Assembly (NCBI GenBank): GCA_024280215.1
Contig: JAJRQO010000028.1
Coordinates: 62,001 to 126,000, forward strand
Direction of reading: 5' to 3'
Source: Candidatus Zixiibacteriota bacterium
GTDB taxonomy: Bacteria; Zixibacteria; MSB-5A5; GN15; FEB-12
DNA length: 64,000 bases
In this document: piece by piece, positions 13,672-39,033 of the stretch
Numbering within the stretch: position 1 is the first letter of the stretch
Layout of the letters: every line of letters begins with the position of its first letter
Notes under the pieces: model-generated
The model's input: the letters and a program-made list of their open reading frames with translations, nothing else
Told to the model about the DNA's origin: nothing
Database searches by the model: none
Translations under genes and position numbers: made by a program

Positions 13672-14364
13672 ATGATACTACTACTAAGAAATTGCATATT
13701 AATGATACTCTTTGTTGGTTCATCTTTGATGGCTCAACCTGAACTTGAAATTGTCCAACCAAATTTTTCATTTGGTATGATACCACAAAGCTCAACAGTG
13801 TCGCAAAAATTCTGGTTCAAATCTATCGGTGATGATACGCTCAAAATTACTGAGATAAAAACTGGCTGTACATGTGCGATTATGCCCCTAAAACAAGATT
13901 TTATTGTACCTGGAGATAGTATGGAAGTTCAGTTTTTATGGGATGTAAAAAAACGGGTCTTTCAGATTGGACGCTATCCCTATATTTTTACAAATGCCTC
14001 TGATGAACCATATCGTATGTCTTTAACAGGTGAAGTTCACAAAAGATTGGACTCTTTGAAGCCTGTATCTGTTTCGCCTTATAAATGCGAATTCACAAAG
14101 CTTAGGAATAATGATGTCAAAGAAGTTAATTTTACTCTTACAAATCAAACTGATATTGATATGAATATATCCCTTTTAACGAATTCAGTTGATGAATGTA
14201 TCGTAAATGTTCCTTTGATGATCCCAGCATCTGGAAAAGCTGTTGGTTCGATTAAAGTTAAAGATGAATTTCTCGATAAAGAATTTAAGGGTTCGATAAC
14301 AATTTTGTTTGACAATAAAGATAATACAAGAATTTCGATACCATTCAGAAGAAAAATATATTAG
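13672..14364 (+). CDS. DUF1573 domain protein (Cys form)
   Basis: A 230-residue exported protein: signal peptide at 1-21, then a DUF1573 domain, an Ig-like (ASH/HYDIN-type) fold common in the FCB group, with unknown function. The family's CxC motif is present as KTGCTCAIMP (Cys66, Cys68). The N-terminal region NFSFGMIPQSSTVSQKFWFK is closely similar to the next gene's FNFGYVPQNSKISHDFWLH, so the two are tandem duplicates. Own promoter at 13596-13623 and an AGAGG site before the ATG. The next gene starts 47 bases downstream. Confidence 0.85.
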   Translation: MILLLRNCILMILFVGSSLMAQPELEIVQPNFSFGMIPQSSTVSQKFWFKSIGDDTLKITEIKTGCTCAIMPLKQDFIVPGDSMEVQFLWDVKKRVFQIGRYPYIFTNASDEPYRMSLTGEVHKRLDSLKPVSVSPYKCEFTKLRNNDVKEVNFTLTNQTDIDMNISLLTNSVDECIVNVPLMIPASGKAVGSIKVKDEFLDKEFKGSITILFDNKDNTRISIPFRRKIY

Positions 14365-14411: not shown

Positions 14412-15149
14412 ATGAAAAAAATTACAATCATGGCATTTGCTCTTTTGCTTATGCTGGCAGCGTCTCAAGTCTCATCAGCCCCACGTATGACAATGCCTGA
14501 ATCTGTTTTCAACTTTGGCTACGTGCCTCAAAATTCAAAAATTAGTCATGATTTTTGGCTTCACTCTACTGGAGATGACTCGCTGAAAATAATTAAAGTG
14601 GTACCTGGTTGAGGATGCACAAAAGCTCCTTTATCTAAAAAGGAACTCGCTGTCGGTGACAGCACTTTACTTGAAATTATTTTCTCTACCAAATCATATA
14701 AAAACCGTATTACCAAAAGACCTAAAATTCAAACCAATGAAGGTCCACCTGATAAAAGAGTACAAATTATAGCTGATGTTGTCGCTCGACCAGATTCTAC
14801 CTATCCATTGGTAATGAAACCATACAAACTTGATTTATCACAGTTTGGTGAAAAACTAAGAGACAAAATAGATTTTACAATTACCAATGTCTCTGATGAA
14901 AAAGTTGATCTTTCGATGATTGCTTTTGCTCAGGATTTTTTTGATGTCAAACTTCCTTCTTCAATTGAAGCTGGTAAATCTGCCTCATGTACTTTAAAGT
15001 TGAAAAAGGATGCGATAAAAAAGAATTTTGAAAAGTCATTTACTATTGAAACATCTGATTCTAAAAATTCACGATTTACAATGCCTGTAAAACGTAAACT
15101 CAGATCTTCATCTCAAGCGAGTGCCAAAAAAGCAAAATCTGGTAAATAA
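14412..15149 (+). CDS. Probable DUF1573 selenoprotein (UGA = Sec67)
   Basis: Read through an in-frame TGA at 14610-14612 the gene encodes 245 residues: signal peptide (LLLMLAASQVSSA), DUF1573 domain, Lys-rich tail. The TGA falls at residue 67 in the context VVPG-U-GCTKAPL, exactly where the first Cys of the CxC motif lies in the paralogues at 13672 (C66-T-C68) and 38353 (C65-D-C67); the second Cys (69) is kept. Homology continues unbroken on both sides and UGA is a normal stop elsewhere, so selenocysteine is the best reading. Candidate SECIS hairpins follow the UGA. A nonsense mutation is the alternative. A redox or metal role for the U-x-C pair is inference. Confidence 0.8.
14625..14663 (+). 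promoter_or_regulatory. Candidate bacterial SECIS hairpins after the DUF1573 UGA
   Basis: Two hairpins follow the UGA at 14610-14612. The first is TCCTTT-ATCTAA-AAAGGA (14627-14644), loop about 20 nt from the UGA, extendable past one mismatch. The second is a perfect GCTGTC-GGT-GACAGC (14649-14663), whose GGT triloop lies about 42 nt from the UGA, slightly farther than the usual 16-37 nt. The second matches the HesB-like hairpin in stem length and GGN loop. Folding and SelB recognition are not demonstrated. Confidence 0.5.
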
Positions 15150-15166: not shown

Positions 15167-15201
15167 AAAAAAACCGCTTTCATGTCGAAAGCGGTTTTTT
15201 T
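15167..15201. terminator. Bidirectional terminator
   Basis: Perfect stem CCGCTTTC-ATGTC-GAAAGCGG with A's on the left and T's on the right. It sits between the convergent DUF1573 and GWxTD genes and can stop both transcripts. Confidence 0.9.
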
Positions 15202-15231: not shown

Positions 15232-16671
15232 CTACCTATCAAGGACGTCCATGAAGCCAGTAATAATCCATTCTGCCCATTGCCTATTGTAAACTTCACC
15301 ATCTGCATTAGAGTGAACTAAACGGTACTCATCGTCACCATAGGCATCTTCAAAGACAAATGTTAGCCCCCGTTCATGTGAGTGGTAATACCATACGACA
15401 AATGAGTTCCCACTTCGTGGTGCTTCGTTGTCATCACGCTGTTCCCATAAACCATACTGCATGTAAATTCGTCCACGATCAGTATTCCAACCATTTGTAA
15501 GAAGGTCATTGTTTGAAAAGTTCTTATTGGCATATAGAAATCTTTCGACTGTTTCTTCACGAAATTCGTTAACACCATTATTCTTGGTTTCATCATGTTC
15601 AGCCCAAATTGCTTGAAGAAAATTTTCTTTACCTCTATCACCAAGGTTATTTAAAGTCTTTTTTTGTTCATGGGTAAGAATGTATGTCGAAAGCTGAACC
15701 TTTTGTTTTAAAGTAAGTCCTGAGTATGAATCAGCACCTTGTTTAAGCTCTTGAGCAGCTAAAATAACCTCTTGTGGAGATATGATTGAAAGAGGTAAAT
15801 AAGATGTATCAGCAGCTTCTGTTGCTAAATCTACGACTATAATTTGCAAATTGTATGTTCCTCGATTCCATCCTGCTATATCAATAGATTCAAGAAAGAC
15901 AGCCGAACTTCCAGGCTTCTTGCTTAGTCGTGAACCAAACATTTGGTAGATGTTTTTATCTTTATCTAAAGCATTGATGATGAGCTGATATTTAGTTCGA
16001 GAACTTTCAGAGTAATCTAAATTATAAATTTCACCATACACATATATTGATTTGTCAGAATCAGCAAAAACCGAAACAGGATTAATTAAGAGATTGTAAC
16101 CATTTTTATAAGTTGGAATATTTCTGTTGGCAGAATCTATGCCAATATATTGAGCATGAAATGCAGAATTGAGACTACTTAAATTAATCGTGTTTGTTTT
16201 TGAACTGGCTTCAACGGTGAATTTATCAATGAAAAACTCCCCTTTCTTTTTACTTACAACATCAATAATTGTTAGGCGGGCAGAATAAATGCCAGGCTTA
16301 ACTTGTAAAGAAAGTTTATTGAATAAACGAATGTCGGCTTTTGATGCTTCCTCTTTGGTTGCCGCAACTACTGTAAACAAAGTATTGGTTGAATCAATCG
16401 GATACCCCGAAACATCAAGAAGTTCGACATGGGCGAAAATTCTGGCAAAATACCTACTGTCTACTGTATCAGGTTTGTAAAACTCAAAATTATTTCTATT
16501 TAATGTGAATGGGAATTCCACTAATGCCGTAGAGTCATAAGCCGGATTATTGTACACCGATGCATTAGCATAGACCGCTATATCGGTTAAACTTCCTTGT
16601 GCTGATAAATTTGTGCCAAAGACACTCAATATAAAAACTATTGATATTAAAAACTTATAATGTACTTTCAC
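15232..16671 (-). CDS. GWxTD domain protein, exported
   Basis: A 479-residue protein with a signal peptide (FLISIVFILSVFGTNLSAQ), a long beta-rich middle without recognisable repeats, and a C-terminal GWxTD module around residue 394 (NGWNTDRGRIYMQYG) followed by a YYHSHERGLTFVFED segment. GWxTD domains are typical of FCB-group envelope proteins of unknown function. It is the last gene of the MacAB-TolC block and pairs with the GWxTD gene 18 bases upstream. The conserved ending suggests a structural or assembly role; no enzyme motif is visible. Confidence 0.82.
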   Translation of the reverse strand: MKVHYKFLISIVFILSVFGTNLSAQGSLTDIAVYANASVYNNPAYDSTALVEFPFTLNRNNFEFYKPDTVDSRYFARIFAHVELLDVSGYPIDSTNTLFTVVAATKEEASKADIRLFNKLSLQVKPGIYSARLTIIDVVSKKKGEFFIDKFTVEASSKTNTINLSSLNSAFHAQYIGIDSANRNIPTYKNGYNLLINPVSVFADSDKSIYVYGEIYNLDYSESSRTKYQLIINALDKDKNIYQMFGSRLSKKPGSSAVFLESIDIAGWNRGTYNLQIIVVDLATEAADTSYLPLSIISPQEVILAAQELKQGADSYSGLTLKQKVQLSTYILTHEQKKTLNNLGDRGKENFLQAIWAEHDETKNNGVNEFREETVERFLYANKNFSNNDLLTNGWNTDRGRIYMQYGLWEQRDDNEAPRSGNSFVVWYYHSHERGLTFVFEDAYGDDEYRLVHSNADGEVYNRQWAEWIITGFMDVLDR

Positions 16672-16689
16672 CTTTTCGGCTCCTTAAAT

Positions 16690-18009
16690 TTACTCTCTTC
16701 GGTACAGTCCATCGTATGGATATACTAAGCGATAATCTCCATCTTCATTTTGATCAACAAAGACAAATTTTAAGTATTTTGAATTCTGATAATAATACCA
16801 TTCTTGATACGGTCTCTGATCAGTTAAAACAGGGTAATCATCTAACTGGTCAGGTTCACCATACATAATATAGATACGCCCACGGTCAGTATTCCAACCA
16901 TTCCCGAACATATAATCAAAATTATGATTTGCGATTGCAACTCTGCGGTAAAACTCATTTTTGGTTTCATTCTCAAATGTCCCAGGTGTTGGATCTTGAG
17001 ATTCCCAAAAAACATTAAAGGCTGCTAACCGTTCTTCGTATGTTTCTTTATCTTTTAACAATTCTATTTCTTCATGTGATGCTATTATTTCAATCTGATG
17101 AACAAGAATTTTGTAATCATATTTGATAAGTGCTTTTGGAGTCCAAACAATTTCAAAATCTTTGTATCTTGTTGCAATCTTTTTGTTACGGTCTCCTCGT
17201 AAAGTGATAATAAGCTCATATTTTCCTGGACGTAACTCATCGATTGAGAGTTCTCTGAATTGTCTTTCAGTATCGTTATTGAAAGTGGTAGTTAACGAAT
17301 CTCGATAAAGCATTCCTTTAGATTCATGTCTTAATACGGTCTCAACACGAATATCTTTGTATTTTTCTTTCCCTTGGTAAAGTTCAATGTAGAAATATAA
17401 TGATTGCTTACCAGAAAGACCAAACTTATGACGCACCGAAGGAATTAATCGTAATTCGCCTTTATTAAAAACAGAAATGCTGTCTATAGCGGAAGCAACT
17501 CCTTGCACCAATTCAATTTCAGAGACAGACGGCTTTTTATGTTTGTACTTTTTAACTTTGACTTTAAATTTTTCTGTCCGTTCTTTATTATGTACAGGGT
17601 CATAAAGTCTGACAATGACTTCATATTTTCCCTCCTCAACAAAGAAATTTACTTGGTTCGTTCTATAATCTGCTCGTGAAGATACCTTTGATTTATTTTC
17701 AACCCTTACTGTTTGATTAAATTTGTAATTGTCGTACCGTTTTTTATTCCTAAATATATCTACAGTAATTTCGTATTCGGCTTCATATTTCTTGTCAACT
17801 TTTTCAAAATTAAGAGCAGCATTAAAAATTTGATAATATACTTCTAAACGAGCAGTTTTATCAGTTACTTCAGATTTAAATAGAGCGTAATCTACTGAAA
17901 AGTAGCTTTTTATAGTGCTATTTTCAGCAACTTTAAAAAATTGCGATGACACCGTTGTCGCACAGAGTGTGCAAAAAAGGATTATGAGTAATGTTTTTTG
18001 TTTATTCAT
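16690..18009 (-). CDS. GWxTD domain protein, exported
   Basis: 439 residues with an N-terminal signal peptide (TLLIILFCTLCATTVSSQ), an Ig-like-rich Lys-heavy middle, and a C-terminal GWxTD module near residue 370 (NGWNTDRGRIYIMYGEPDQ) ending WYYYQNSKYLKFVFVD. It resembles the downstream neighbour in layout, and the two probably arose by duplication. The gene lies about 110 bases after the last permease gene of the ABC block in the same direction, so cotranscription is plausible but not certain. Function unknown; envelope location inferred from the signal peptide. Confidence 0.82.
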   Translation of the reverse strand: MNKQKTLLIILFCTLCATTVSSQFFKVAENSTIKSYFSVDYALFKSEVTDKTARLEVYYQIFNAALNFEKVDKKYEAEYEITVDIFRNKKRYDNYKFNQTVRVENKSKVSSRADYRTNQVNFFVEEGKYEVIVRLYDPVHNKERTEKFKVKVKKYKHKKPSVSEIELVQGVASAIDSISVFNKGELRLIPSVRHKFGLSGKQSLYFYIELYQGKEKYKDIRVETVLRHESKGMLYRDSLTTTFNNDTERQFRELSIDELRPGKYELIITLRGDRNKKIATRYKDFEIVWTPKALIKYDYKILVHQIEIIASHEEIELLKDKETYEERLAAFNVFWESQDPTPGTFENETKNEFYRRVAIANHNFDYMFGNGWNTDRGRIYIMYGEPDQLDDYPVLTDQRPYQEWYYYQNSKYLKFVFVDQNEDGDYRLVYPYDGLYRRE

Positions 18010-18117
18010 CTGTTTGTCATTTCTACAAAAATTCTCAATTCATAATGCAAATTATACATAATAATCCTATCAGGACAATATAAAAAATAGACGTTTTTAA
18101 TGAGGATTTGTTGAATT

Positions 18118-19368
18118 TTATTCGTAGCGAAGGGCTTCAATAGGGTCAAGGCGTGATGCTTTGATTGCTGGATAGACGCCAGAGACTAAGCCAACAGTAA
18201 CAGAAACTATAAAACCAACAATAACCCAGAAAATTGGTATCGAAAGAGGCCAGCCGAGAATGCCATTCACAAGCAACCCAAGCGAGACTCCAAATATAAT
18301 GCCAATAATACCACCAGTCGCAGATAATGTCATCGCTTCAGTTAAAAACTGTAAAACGATATTGCTTCTTTTGGCTCCAATTGCTTTTCTGACACCTATT
18401 TCTCGAGTACGTTCCGTGACTGATACAAGCATAATATTCATGACACCGATACCACCAACCATCAAACCGACAGATGTAATCACAAGCATCACTAAATAAA
18501 TATTATCAGTGATGCCGCTAATGAAATCTTTAAATTGATCCTGAGTTCCTAAAACAAAATTATCTTTTTTGTTAAATGGAACTTTCCTGAAAATTCGTAG
18601 TACTGCTGTAATTTCATCAACGGCCTCATCCATAAGTTCATAAGTTACAGCTCTGGCAACTAATAAAAGTTCTTTTTCCCAAGGATGAATTTTACTAAAT
18701 GTTGATAATGGAAGTGCGACAAGTTTATTGATTTGGTCATTACCAAAATTAGATTTTACATATTCAAGAACTCCTACAACAGTATATTTATTACCATTAA
18801 CCCGTATTTTTTTTCCGATTGAGTTTTCCTCGGGGAAAAGCAAATCATTTAAGTCAGAGCCAATGACGCAAATCATTGCCCGAGTTTGTACATCAATTCT
18901 GGTAATAAAACGACCTGAGGACAATGCTTTGTTATTAACTTTTAAATAATCTGGCCATGTCCCCATCAAACTGGGATTGTTGAATTTTCTGTTTTTATAT
19001 TTTGCTTCGTTTCCCCCAGGTTTAAAATAATAATTTTGTGGAGAAACTCCCTCGACATAATCACAGTTTGCCATGATTGTTCGAGCTTCACCCTCTGTGA
19101 TAGATGGGCGGTTTCTATCTTCGTCAGTAAGTTTTGATCTGTCGACACTATCATCAAATTTTGTAATCATGATAATATTGGAACCAAGCGAATCTATCTC
19201 TTGATTCACAGCACCATTTAAGCCATCTATAATCGCAGCCATACCAATAACAGAACTGACCCCAACCATAACACCTAAAACCGTTAAACCTGCACGAAAC
19301 TTGTTCCCACGAATCGATGAAAGTGCAAGCAGTATAGAGTTTTTAATTTCAATCCAACTAAGAATCAT
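18118..19368 (-). CDS. MacB-like ABC transporter permease (third copy)
   Basis: 416 residues: N-terminal membrane helix (KFRAGLTVLGVMVGVSSVIG), a large periplasmic MacB_PCD-type domain, and three C-terminal helices with the FtsX signature GGIGVMNIMLVSVTERTREIG and VRKAIGAKRSNI. I start it at the ATG at 19368 to match its tandem paralogue; a longer frame to 19389 would need TTG. It lacks the fused ATPase of E. coli MacB and must use the separate ATPase encoded upstream. The C-terminal third is nearly identical to the permease at 19423, so it is a recent tandem duplicate. Confidence 0.88.
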   Translation of the reverse strand: MILSWIEIKNSILLALSSIRGNKFRAGLTVLGVMVGVSSVIGMAAIIDGLNGAVNQEIDSLGSNIIMITKFDDSVDRSKLTDEDRNRPSITEGEARTIMANCDYVEGVSPQNYYFKPGGNEAKYKNRKFNNPSLMGTWPDYLKVNNKALSSGRFITRIDVQTRAMICVIGSDLNDLLFPEENSIGKKIRVNGNKYTVVGVLEYVKSNFGNDQINKLVALPLSTFSKIHPWEKELLLVARAVTYELMDEAVDEITAVLRIFRKVPFNKKDNFVLGTQDQFKDFISGITDNIYLVMLVITSVGLMVGGIGVMNIMLVSVTERTREIGVRKAIGAKRSNIVLQFLTEAMTLSATGGIIGIIFGVSLGLLVNGILGWPLSIPIFWVIVGFIVSVTVGLVSGVYPAIKASRLDPIEALRYE

Positions 19369-19422
19369 AACAAATTGATACCTTTGCAATAAAGAGATAT
19401 TACTTTATGTTTATTTCTGATG

Positions 19423-20676
19423 TTATTCGTATCTGAGTGCTTCAATAGGGTCAAGTCGTGATGCTTTTATCGCTGGATAAACTCCAGAAACCAATCCTAC
19501 GGTTACAGAAACAACAAAGCCGACAATAATCCAGAATATAGGTAAAGATAATGGCCAATCTAAAGCGAAATTTATCACCAAACCTACAGTAGTGCCAAAT
19601 AGAATACCAATCACTCCACCAGTAGCAGAAAGTGTCATAGCCTCTGTTAAAAATTGTAAAATGATATTACTACGTTTTGCTCCAATAGCTTTTCGCACGC
19701 CAATCTCACGAGTACGTTCTGTGACTGACACAAGCATAATATTCATGACTCCAATACCACCAACCATCAAACCGACAGATGTAATGACAAGCATGACGAG
19801 ATAGACTTTGTCTGTTATACCACCAATTAAATCTTTAAACTCTTCCTGAGTTTCCAAGACAAAATTATCTTTTTCATTGAATGGAACATTTCGATGTATT
19901 CGAAGAGTTGATGTCACTTCATCTAAAGCTTCTTCCATAACATCTTTTGTAACTGGTTTCACAAATAGAGTCAATGCTTTATCCCACGGATATAGTTTTT
20001 TTGAGGTTCCAAGAGGCATTAAAATCATTTCATTGACTTCATCATTTCCGAAGTTAGATTTTACTTTTTCCATAATACCTATGACTTGAAACTTATTACC
20101 ATTAACCCTAATCTCCTGTCCGATTGCTCTTTCCCCATCAGGAAATAATATTTTTGCTACATCAAAACCAATCACACAGACCATCGCTTTTATCTGATTA
20201 TCAATATGAGTAATAAACCGACCTTCTCTAACCTCTTTATTATTTACTTTGAGATAATCAGGCCATGAACCAATAATTTGCGGAGAGTTATATTTTCTAT
20301 TTTTAAATTTGACTTCATTACCACCTTGGAGGTAAAAATGATTTTGAGGAGCTACACCATCGACCAGAGTACAATTTTTCTGAATAGCGAGTGCTTCACT
20401 TTCAGTAATCTCTGGACGGTTTCTTTCCGAGTCGGTTAAATTATCCCAATCTACATTAGACTTAAAAGTTCTTACCATTATAATATGGGAGCCTTTAGAA
20501 TCAATTTCCTGATTCATCGCTCCATTGAGACCATCAATAATCGCTGCCATTCCGATTACAGAACTGACACCAATCATCACTCCTAAAATAGTAAGTCCTG
20601 CTCGAAATTTGTTTCCTCTTATAGAAGAAAGTGCGAGCATGATTGAATTTCTAATTTCGACCCAACTGAGAATCAT
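19423..20676 (-). CDS. MacB-like ABC transporter permease (second copy)
   Basis: 417 residues, same architecture as the neighbour at 18118: one N-terminal helix, periplasmic domain, three C-terminal helices with GGIGVMNIMLVSVTERTREIG. Identity with that neighbour is very high at both ends and lower in the periplasmic domain (for example VDGVAPQNHFYLQGGNE versus VEGVSPQNYYFKPGGNE), which suggests divergence in what the periplasmic part contacts. It starts three bases after the permease upstream. Two different permeases could form a heterodimer around one ATPase dimer; that is inference. Confidence 0.88.
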   Translation of the reverse strand: MILSWVEIRNSIMLALSSIRGNKFRAGLTILGVMIGVSSVIGMAAIIDGLNGAMNQEIDSKGSHIIMVRTFKSNVDWDNLTDSERNRPEITESEALAIQKNCTLVDGVAPQNHFYLQGGNEVKFKNRKYNSPQIIGSWPDYLKVNNKEVREGRFITHIDNQIKAMVCVIGFDVAKILFPDGERAIGQEIRVNGNKFQVIGIMEKVKSNFGNDEVNEMILMPLGTSKKLYPWDKALTLFVKPVTKDVMEEALDEVTSTLRIHRNVPFNEKDNFVLETQEEFKDLIGGITDKVYLVMLVITSVGLMVGGIGVMNIMLVSVTERTREIGVRKAIGAKRSNIILQFLTEAMTLSATGGVIGILFGTTVGLVINFALDWPLSLPIFWIIVGFVVSVTVGLVSGVYPAIKASRLDPIEALRYE

Positions 20677-38352: not shown

Positions 38353-39033
38353 ATGCTATTACGAAATATGATCTTGATGTTGACTATGCTTTGTTTGCCA
38401 ATGAGCCTGTTTGCTCAAGGTTTGACGTATGAAGAGCAGATGCATGATTTTGGACATGTTGGGATAGATTTTAAAGTGTATAATCAGTATCTTTTTGTAA
38501 ATCGTACCGATGTTGATATTAAGATTCTTGATATTGAAGTGAGCTGTGATTGTTCATCAGTACATACTGTCGATAGTTTGGTGCAACCAGGTGATACAGT
38601 GTTTTTTAATTTGACGTTTGAGACAAAAGATTATTATGGTCCAGTAAACAAATCGTTTACTGTTTTTACAGATCATCCAAAACTTCCTGAGCTTCAATAT
38701 TTCTATGTGTCTATTATAGGTCAATGGTTTAATGGTATTAAGCCAAATCCTATTTCATTGTTTTTCTTACCGTCCAAAAAAAGTCAGGTTATATCTATAC
38801 CAAATTCTCGATTTGATTCTTTAAAACTTTTGAAGCATTTACGAAATGATAAAACTGTTTCGGTTACAGTCATAAAAGATTCAGCGAAGAAAAATGAGTC
38901 TATTAAGTTGTCTGTTTCTCCAAGCAATACGTTGTCTACTGGTACATATAAAACCAATATTACTTTGGTAATTGAAGCAGATGATAATGATGAAACGGTA
39001 TTAACAATTCCAGTCAAAATAGTTAAATACTAA
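38353..39033 (+). CDS. DUF1573 domain protein (third paralogue)
   Basis: 226 residues with a signal peptide (LTMLCLPMSLFAQ) and a DUF1573 domain starting YEEQMHDFGHVG. The CxC motif is present as VSCDCSS (Cys65, Cys67), which aligns with C66/C68 and U67/C69 of the two paralogues at 13.7-15.1 kb. It is an exported Ig-like domain protein of unknown function. Its ribosome binding site (AGAGGAAG) lies in the end of the preceding PLP enzyme gene. Confidence 0.85.
   Translation: MLLRNMILMLTMLCLPMSLFAQGLTYEEQMHDFGHVGIDFKVYNQYLFVNRTDVDIKILDIEVSCDCSSVHTVDSLVQPGDTVFFNLTFETKDYYGPVNKSFTVFTDHPKLPELQYFYVSIIGQWFNGIKPNPISLFFLPSKKSQVISIPNSRFDSLKLLKHLRNDKTVSVTVIKDSAKKNESIKLSVSPSNTLSTGTYKTNITLVIEADDNDETVLTIPVKIVKY

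Follow-up and report, generated by a model that had tools for sequence, protein, structure and literature searches.

The window, that is, the whole 64,000-nt stretch of Candidatus Zixiibacteriota DNA that was analyzed, carries three DUF1573 or DUF1573-like genes, one of which is crossed by an in-frame TGA. The genes, the codons at issue and the adjoining terminator-like element are as follows.

14412-15149, + strand: putative Sec-containing DUF1573 gene, from the ATG at 14412 to the TAA at 15147-15149; 245 residues with U67-G68-C69
14610-14612, + strand: codon 67, a UGA predicted to be read as selenocysteine (TGA conservation; exchange with TGC/TGT in paralogues)
14616-14618, + strand: Cys69 codon, the invariant Cys that completes the U-G-C pair (38/38 Sec copies, 53/53 Cys copies)
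13672-14364, + strand: tandem all-Cys DUF1573 paralogue with C66-T-C68 (PF07610, 62.2 bits)
38353-39033, + strand: third DUF1573-like gene of the window, a distant paralogue with C65-D-C67 (29.3 bits against the family profile)
15171-15197, + strand: intrinsic-terminator-like hairpin and T run, directly 3' of the full-length TAA (sequence)

With the TGA counted as selenocysteine (Sec), the frame 14412-15149 encodes 245 residues and contains no second TGA; the Sec lies in the motif V-P-G-U67-G-C69-T, and the protein matches the Pfam family DUF1573 (PF07610) with 76.7 bits, above the curated cut-off of 26.1. A sequence-only reading of this DNA had placed the UGA directly over the first Cys of a CxC pair, and the CxC pairs of both paralogues agree with this placement. 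It had further held that UGA acts as an ordinary stop in at least four other genes; TGA ends 5 of the 43 long ORFs in the window, so UGA is not globally recoded, and a general reassignment of the codon was rejected. The terminator-like hairpin that follows the TAA fits a gene end at 15149 rather than at the TGA.

The best homologues in 41 genomes (the source genome and its relatives) mostly have a frame that is open but for a single TGA; the relatives carrying the Sec gene are mostly labelled Candidatus Zixiibacteriota. All 38 distinct Sec copies at the level of the order have TGA at the same codon, in keeping with the earlier argument that its position is beyond chance, and UGA is found at this codon also in more distant families of the class (12 families in total). 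The 178 residues said to continue past the UGA are likewise borne out: the frame is open to the TAA, and the codons 3' of the TGA evolve with a dN/dS of 0.10-0.17, indicating purifying selection. The reading of the UGA as a nonsense mutation or a sequencing error, in a gene undergoing decay, has next to no probability and was rejected, since the same UGA is shared by relatives in dozens of genera and the downstream frame remains under purifying selection; no TAA or TAG was seen in its place, nor does the frame show decay, two outcomes that had been named as speaking against Sec. Some genomes carry more than one copy: a cluster of three Sec-DUF1573 genes occurs in G096 and G097 (L126, L127), and in G101 and G102 (L129, L130) a second Sec copy with U-H-C is clustered with the U-G-C copy. 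One record, L047 (QQUK01000194.1), is titled Calditrichaeota bacterium CLD4, but its match equals that of G001:C58, which belongs to the genus of the source genome, and the label looks wrong.

The four genes of the Sec machinery for which a search had been suggested are all present in the source genome (3.03 Mb, given as 96% complete). selA (532 bits) and selB (322 bits) are adjacent on contig C40, selC, with the anticodon UCA, lies near them, and selD (372 bits) itself carries one in-frame TGA. The selD TGA (L061, about 2390-2392; G000:C39, minus strand) is part of a CAGU motif and is followed at about 20 nt by a G-loop hairpin; this spacing is the usual one, in contrast to the DUF1573 gene. 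Nearly all genomes of the phylum have SelB (116/132), so its co-occurrence is uninformative as a test for Sec. One genome given as 100% complete (G127, L114) has a Sec-DUF1573 copy and no SelB match at E ≤ 1e-60.

Two adjacent helices lie within the coding sequence downstream of the UGA.

14624-14647, + strand: helix I, AGCUCCUUU...AAAGGAACU, between the UGA and the apical hairpin (pairing, covariation)
14649-14663, + strand: helix II, GCUGUC-GGU-GACAGC, putative SelB-binding bSECIS hairpin (fixed synonymous sites, pairing)

Helix II has a GGU loop and, in the window gene, a 6-bp stem. The codons for A-V-G-D-S that form it show almost no variation among Sec copies (GCT in 37 of 37 with Ala, GTC in 38/38 and GAC in 38/38; at the remaining positions GGT in 30 and GGC in 8, AGC in 34 and AGT in 4), whereas the A-V-G-D-S codons of Cys copies vary freely and Pro replaces Val in 44/53. 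Pairing in helix II reaches 96.5%, compared with 57.8 ± 2.7% under resampling of synonymous codons. A compensatory variant, GCUAUC-GGU-GAUAGC, is found in G099, G101, and G102 (L128-L130) and changes V to I in the protein; a few Sec copies (L127, L132, L133) have GCUGCC, which breaks one pair. For helix I, 81.5% of cells are paired (56.2 ± 2.1% with codons resampled), and one pair covaries (columns 24/41: UA, AU, GC, and GU); the helix is imperfect in the source genome, with one mismatch and an alternative fold for its 5' part. The covariation score of the RNA element is 0.162, compared with 0.087 ± 0.008 after shuffling. A computed consensus fold that draws the 5' arm into another hairpin (columns 10-26) was set aside, as its pairs rest on codon-constrained invariant bases. 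Helix I was also considered as the SelB hairpin and rejected; its loop is 10 nt long, the first two loop positions are mostly CT or TT, and the required G is absent. A phylum-wide search with the RNA model gives matches in 105/132 genomes, a figure that includes some Cys copies and does not equal the number of Sec genes.

The region 14610-14680 had been put forward for bSECIS prediction, and a conserved hairpin with a G-rich loop does lie inside it, in favor of the Sec reading. Its spacing departs from the published model: in 72/75 Sec sequences, the window gene included, 42 nt separate the UGA from the apical loop, a distance outside the 16-37 nt of the published consensus (PMC13188914). Another hairpin that agrees with that model occurs in only 13/75 Sec sequences, the window gene not among them. 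The consensus places the energy threshold at or below -7.5 kcal/mol; the hairpin alone, with helix I not counted, has -6.8 kcal/mol in the 6-bp form of the window gene and -8.4 kcal/mol in the 7-bp consensus version. The Zixibacteria element resembles the consensus in its short stem, its 3-nt loop beginning with GG (in agreement with the G[G/U] rule for bSECIS elements) and its in-frame position 3' of the UGA; it differs in the distance of the loop and in the second helix that stands between. As the same paper admits bSECIS elements that fail the consensus model, the departure in spacing has precedent.

It is highly likely, judged from this comparative evidence, that Sec is inserted at codon 67 under the guidance of the described RNA element, and the DUF1573 gene is very probably a true selenoprotein gene. 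SelB and tRNA-Sec would decode the UGA, guided by the helix II hairpin together with the neighboring helix I, and the GGU loop would be the likely SelB contact. Folding of helix I may shorten the path between the UGA and the SelB hairpin, which would explain how a spacing of 42 nt can work. A programmed leaky stop, yielding a truncated and a full-length product, the latter with an ordinary amino acid and no selenium at the site, might likewise conserve both the UGA and a downstream RNA structure; it is nonetheless highly improbable given the full Sec machinery of the genome, the hairpin loop that obeys the bSECIS rule and the exchange of the UGA with Cys in aligned paralogues.

This exchange, for which an alignment of homologues had been proposed, is seen exactly at the UGA site: Cys takes the UGA position in 53/53 aligned Cys paralogues, against UGA in 38/38 Sec copies. 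On the tree, the Cys paralogues, with the motif PGCGCT, are interspersed with Sec copies, and a minimum of 17 Sec/Cys changes is needed, at least 10 of them forced by starred branches; these counts were taken from a quick tree, whose branch stars are less reliable than those of a careful tree. G088 (L108) holds tandem Sec and Cys copies on very short branches, and its Cys copy retains the hairpin GCTGTCGGAGACAGC; such a relic hairpin is kept by some Cys copies (L108, L123). The G088 pair looks like a recent exchange in which the RNA signal was left over as a relic. Because the change counts cannot separate gain from loss, we infer the direction, from Sec to Cys, from the relic hairpin. Taken with the RNA data, these observations incline us to the view that Zixibacteria possess a distinct class of bSECIS, with two adjacent helices and a 42-nt spacing, that is mostly missed by current rules; that the RNA element has influenced the protein sequence (Val for Pro in AVGDS); and that Sec and Cys have toggled repeatedly in the phylum.

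The sequence-only reading did not count DUF1573 among the reported selenoprotein families. This point is to be corrected: DUF1573 (PF07610) is already cataloged as such, with the motif UGC (PMC9312934, PMC13188914), and it has an NCBIfam entry, NF041425 (OS_HP2 family (seleno)protein, OS_HP2_seleno). PMC9312934 cites Zhang & Gladyshev 2007 for the DUF1573 selenoprotein. The cataloged protein (CAB1076174.1, MDJ0815992.1; Olavius algarvensis symbiont study, 2007) has the same Pfam domain and the same U-G-C as the window member, which differs in coming from Candidatus Zixiibacteriota and in being accompanied by Cys sisters and tandem copies. NF041425 is matched by each of the 31 proteins in the Zixibacteria alignment. 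The window protein matches it over residues 29-111 with 76.1 bits (2e-21), a significant score that stays under the curated cut-off (100 bits), so annotation with NF041425 would leave the protein unnamed. A literature search that covered few subscription papers found none that links Zixibacteria to a DUF1573 selenoprotein; within that literature, the clade in Zixibacteria is new, and so are its bSECIS with two helices and a long spacing and the repeated swaps between Sec and Cys.

The Zixibacteria proteins thus make up a new and well-supported branch of a selenoprotein family already on record, with the UGA and its RNA signal retained across the phylum. Dozens of Sec genes beside Cys sisters, some with relic hairpins, provide a large natural set for asking what Sec offers over Cys, in this case in an Ig-fold protein. 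Standard search rules would in most cases overlook a long-spaced bSECIS of this kind, and the selenoproteomes of bacteria in such phyla may be undercounted. Annotation that takes every UGA as a stop truncates or splits these genes.

Two features of the window protein are relevant to its location and fold.

14412-14480, + strand: residues 1-23, N-terminal hydrophobic helix, likely export signal (sequence; helix at residues 3-17 in the model)
14490-14780, + strand: residues 27-123, DUF1573/HYDIN-like Ig domain that holds U67 and C69 (PF07610, model)

An AlphaFold2 model (pLDDT 88.8) consists of an N-terminal helix followed by two Ig-like domains. Residues 21-126 superpose on 2qsv from Porphyromonas gingivalis with a Z of 14.7, and HYDIN and VesB domains are also alike; residues about 130-233 resemble a PapD-type chaperone domain. 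The likeness to HYDIN/SPD-2/VesB-like and PapD-like Ig domains (2qsv, 4lk4, 2e6j; Z about 12-15 for residues about 21-126) is one of fold only, and function cannot be read from the Ig fold alone. A PDB sequence search with the DUF1573 alignment gave no match.

The gene product would be an exported two-domain Ig-fold selenoprotein in which U67-G-C69, in the first Ig domain, forms a selenol/thiol pair one residue apart, with the tandem CxC paralogue as its Cys-based sister. Across known families, Sec mostly serves in redox catalysis. We moderately favor a periplasmic redox role, based on the invariance of UxC/CxC, in which U67 and C69 would form a reversible selenenylsulfide. CxC pairs often bind metals, and the same invariance in Sec and Cys forms could mark a selenolate-thiolate site for a soft metal such as Cu, Hg, or Zn in a carrier or sensor, with Sec inserted in the same way. 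Such a site would suit the lack of an adjoining thioredoxin-like gene, but the alignment offers no additional invariant residue (His, Met, or Cys) as a ligand and the prevailing use of Sec elsewhere is catalytic, and we consider it possible but rather unlikely. The proposal that the CxC of DUF1573 has a redox or metal role fits the data in either case.

Returning to the favored redox role, the gene neighborhood shows no obvious partner. The upstream neighbors, an FAD-linked oxidase and a C1-like peptidase, are not retained as a pair in all relatives, and the neighboring genes were set aside as a clue to function. Downstream, on the minus strand (window 15232-20676), are two genes with GWxTD domains and, after them, two permease genes of the MacB/FtsX type; relatives, too, have GWxTD genes next to the Sec gene (L050, L079).
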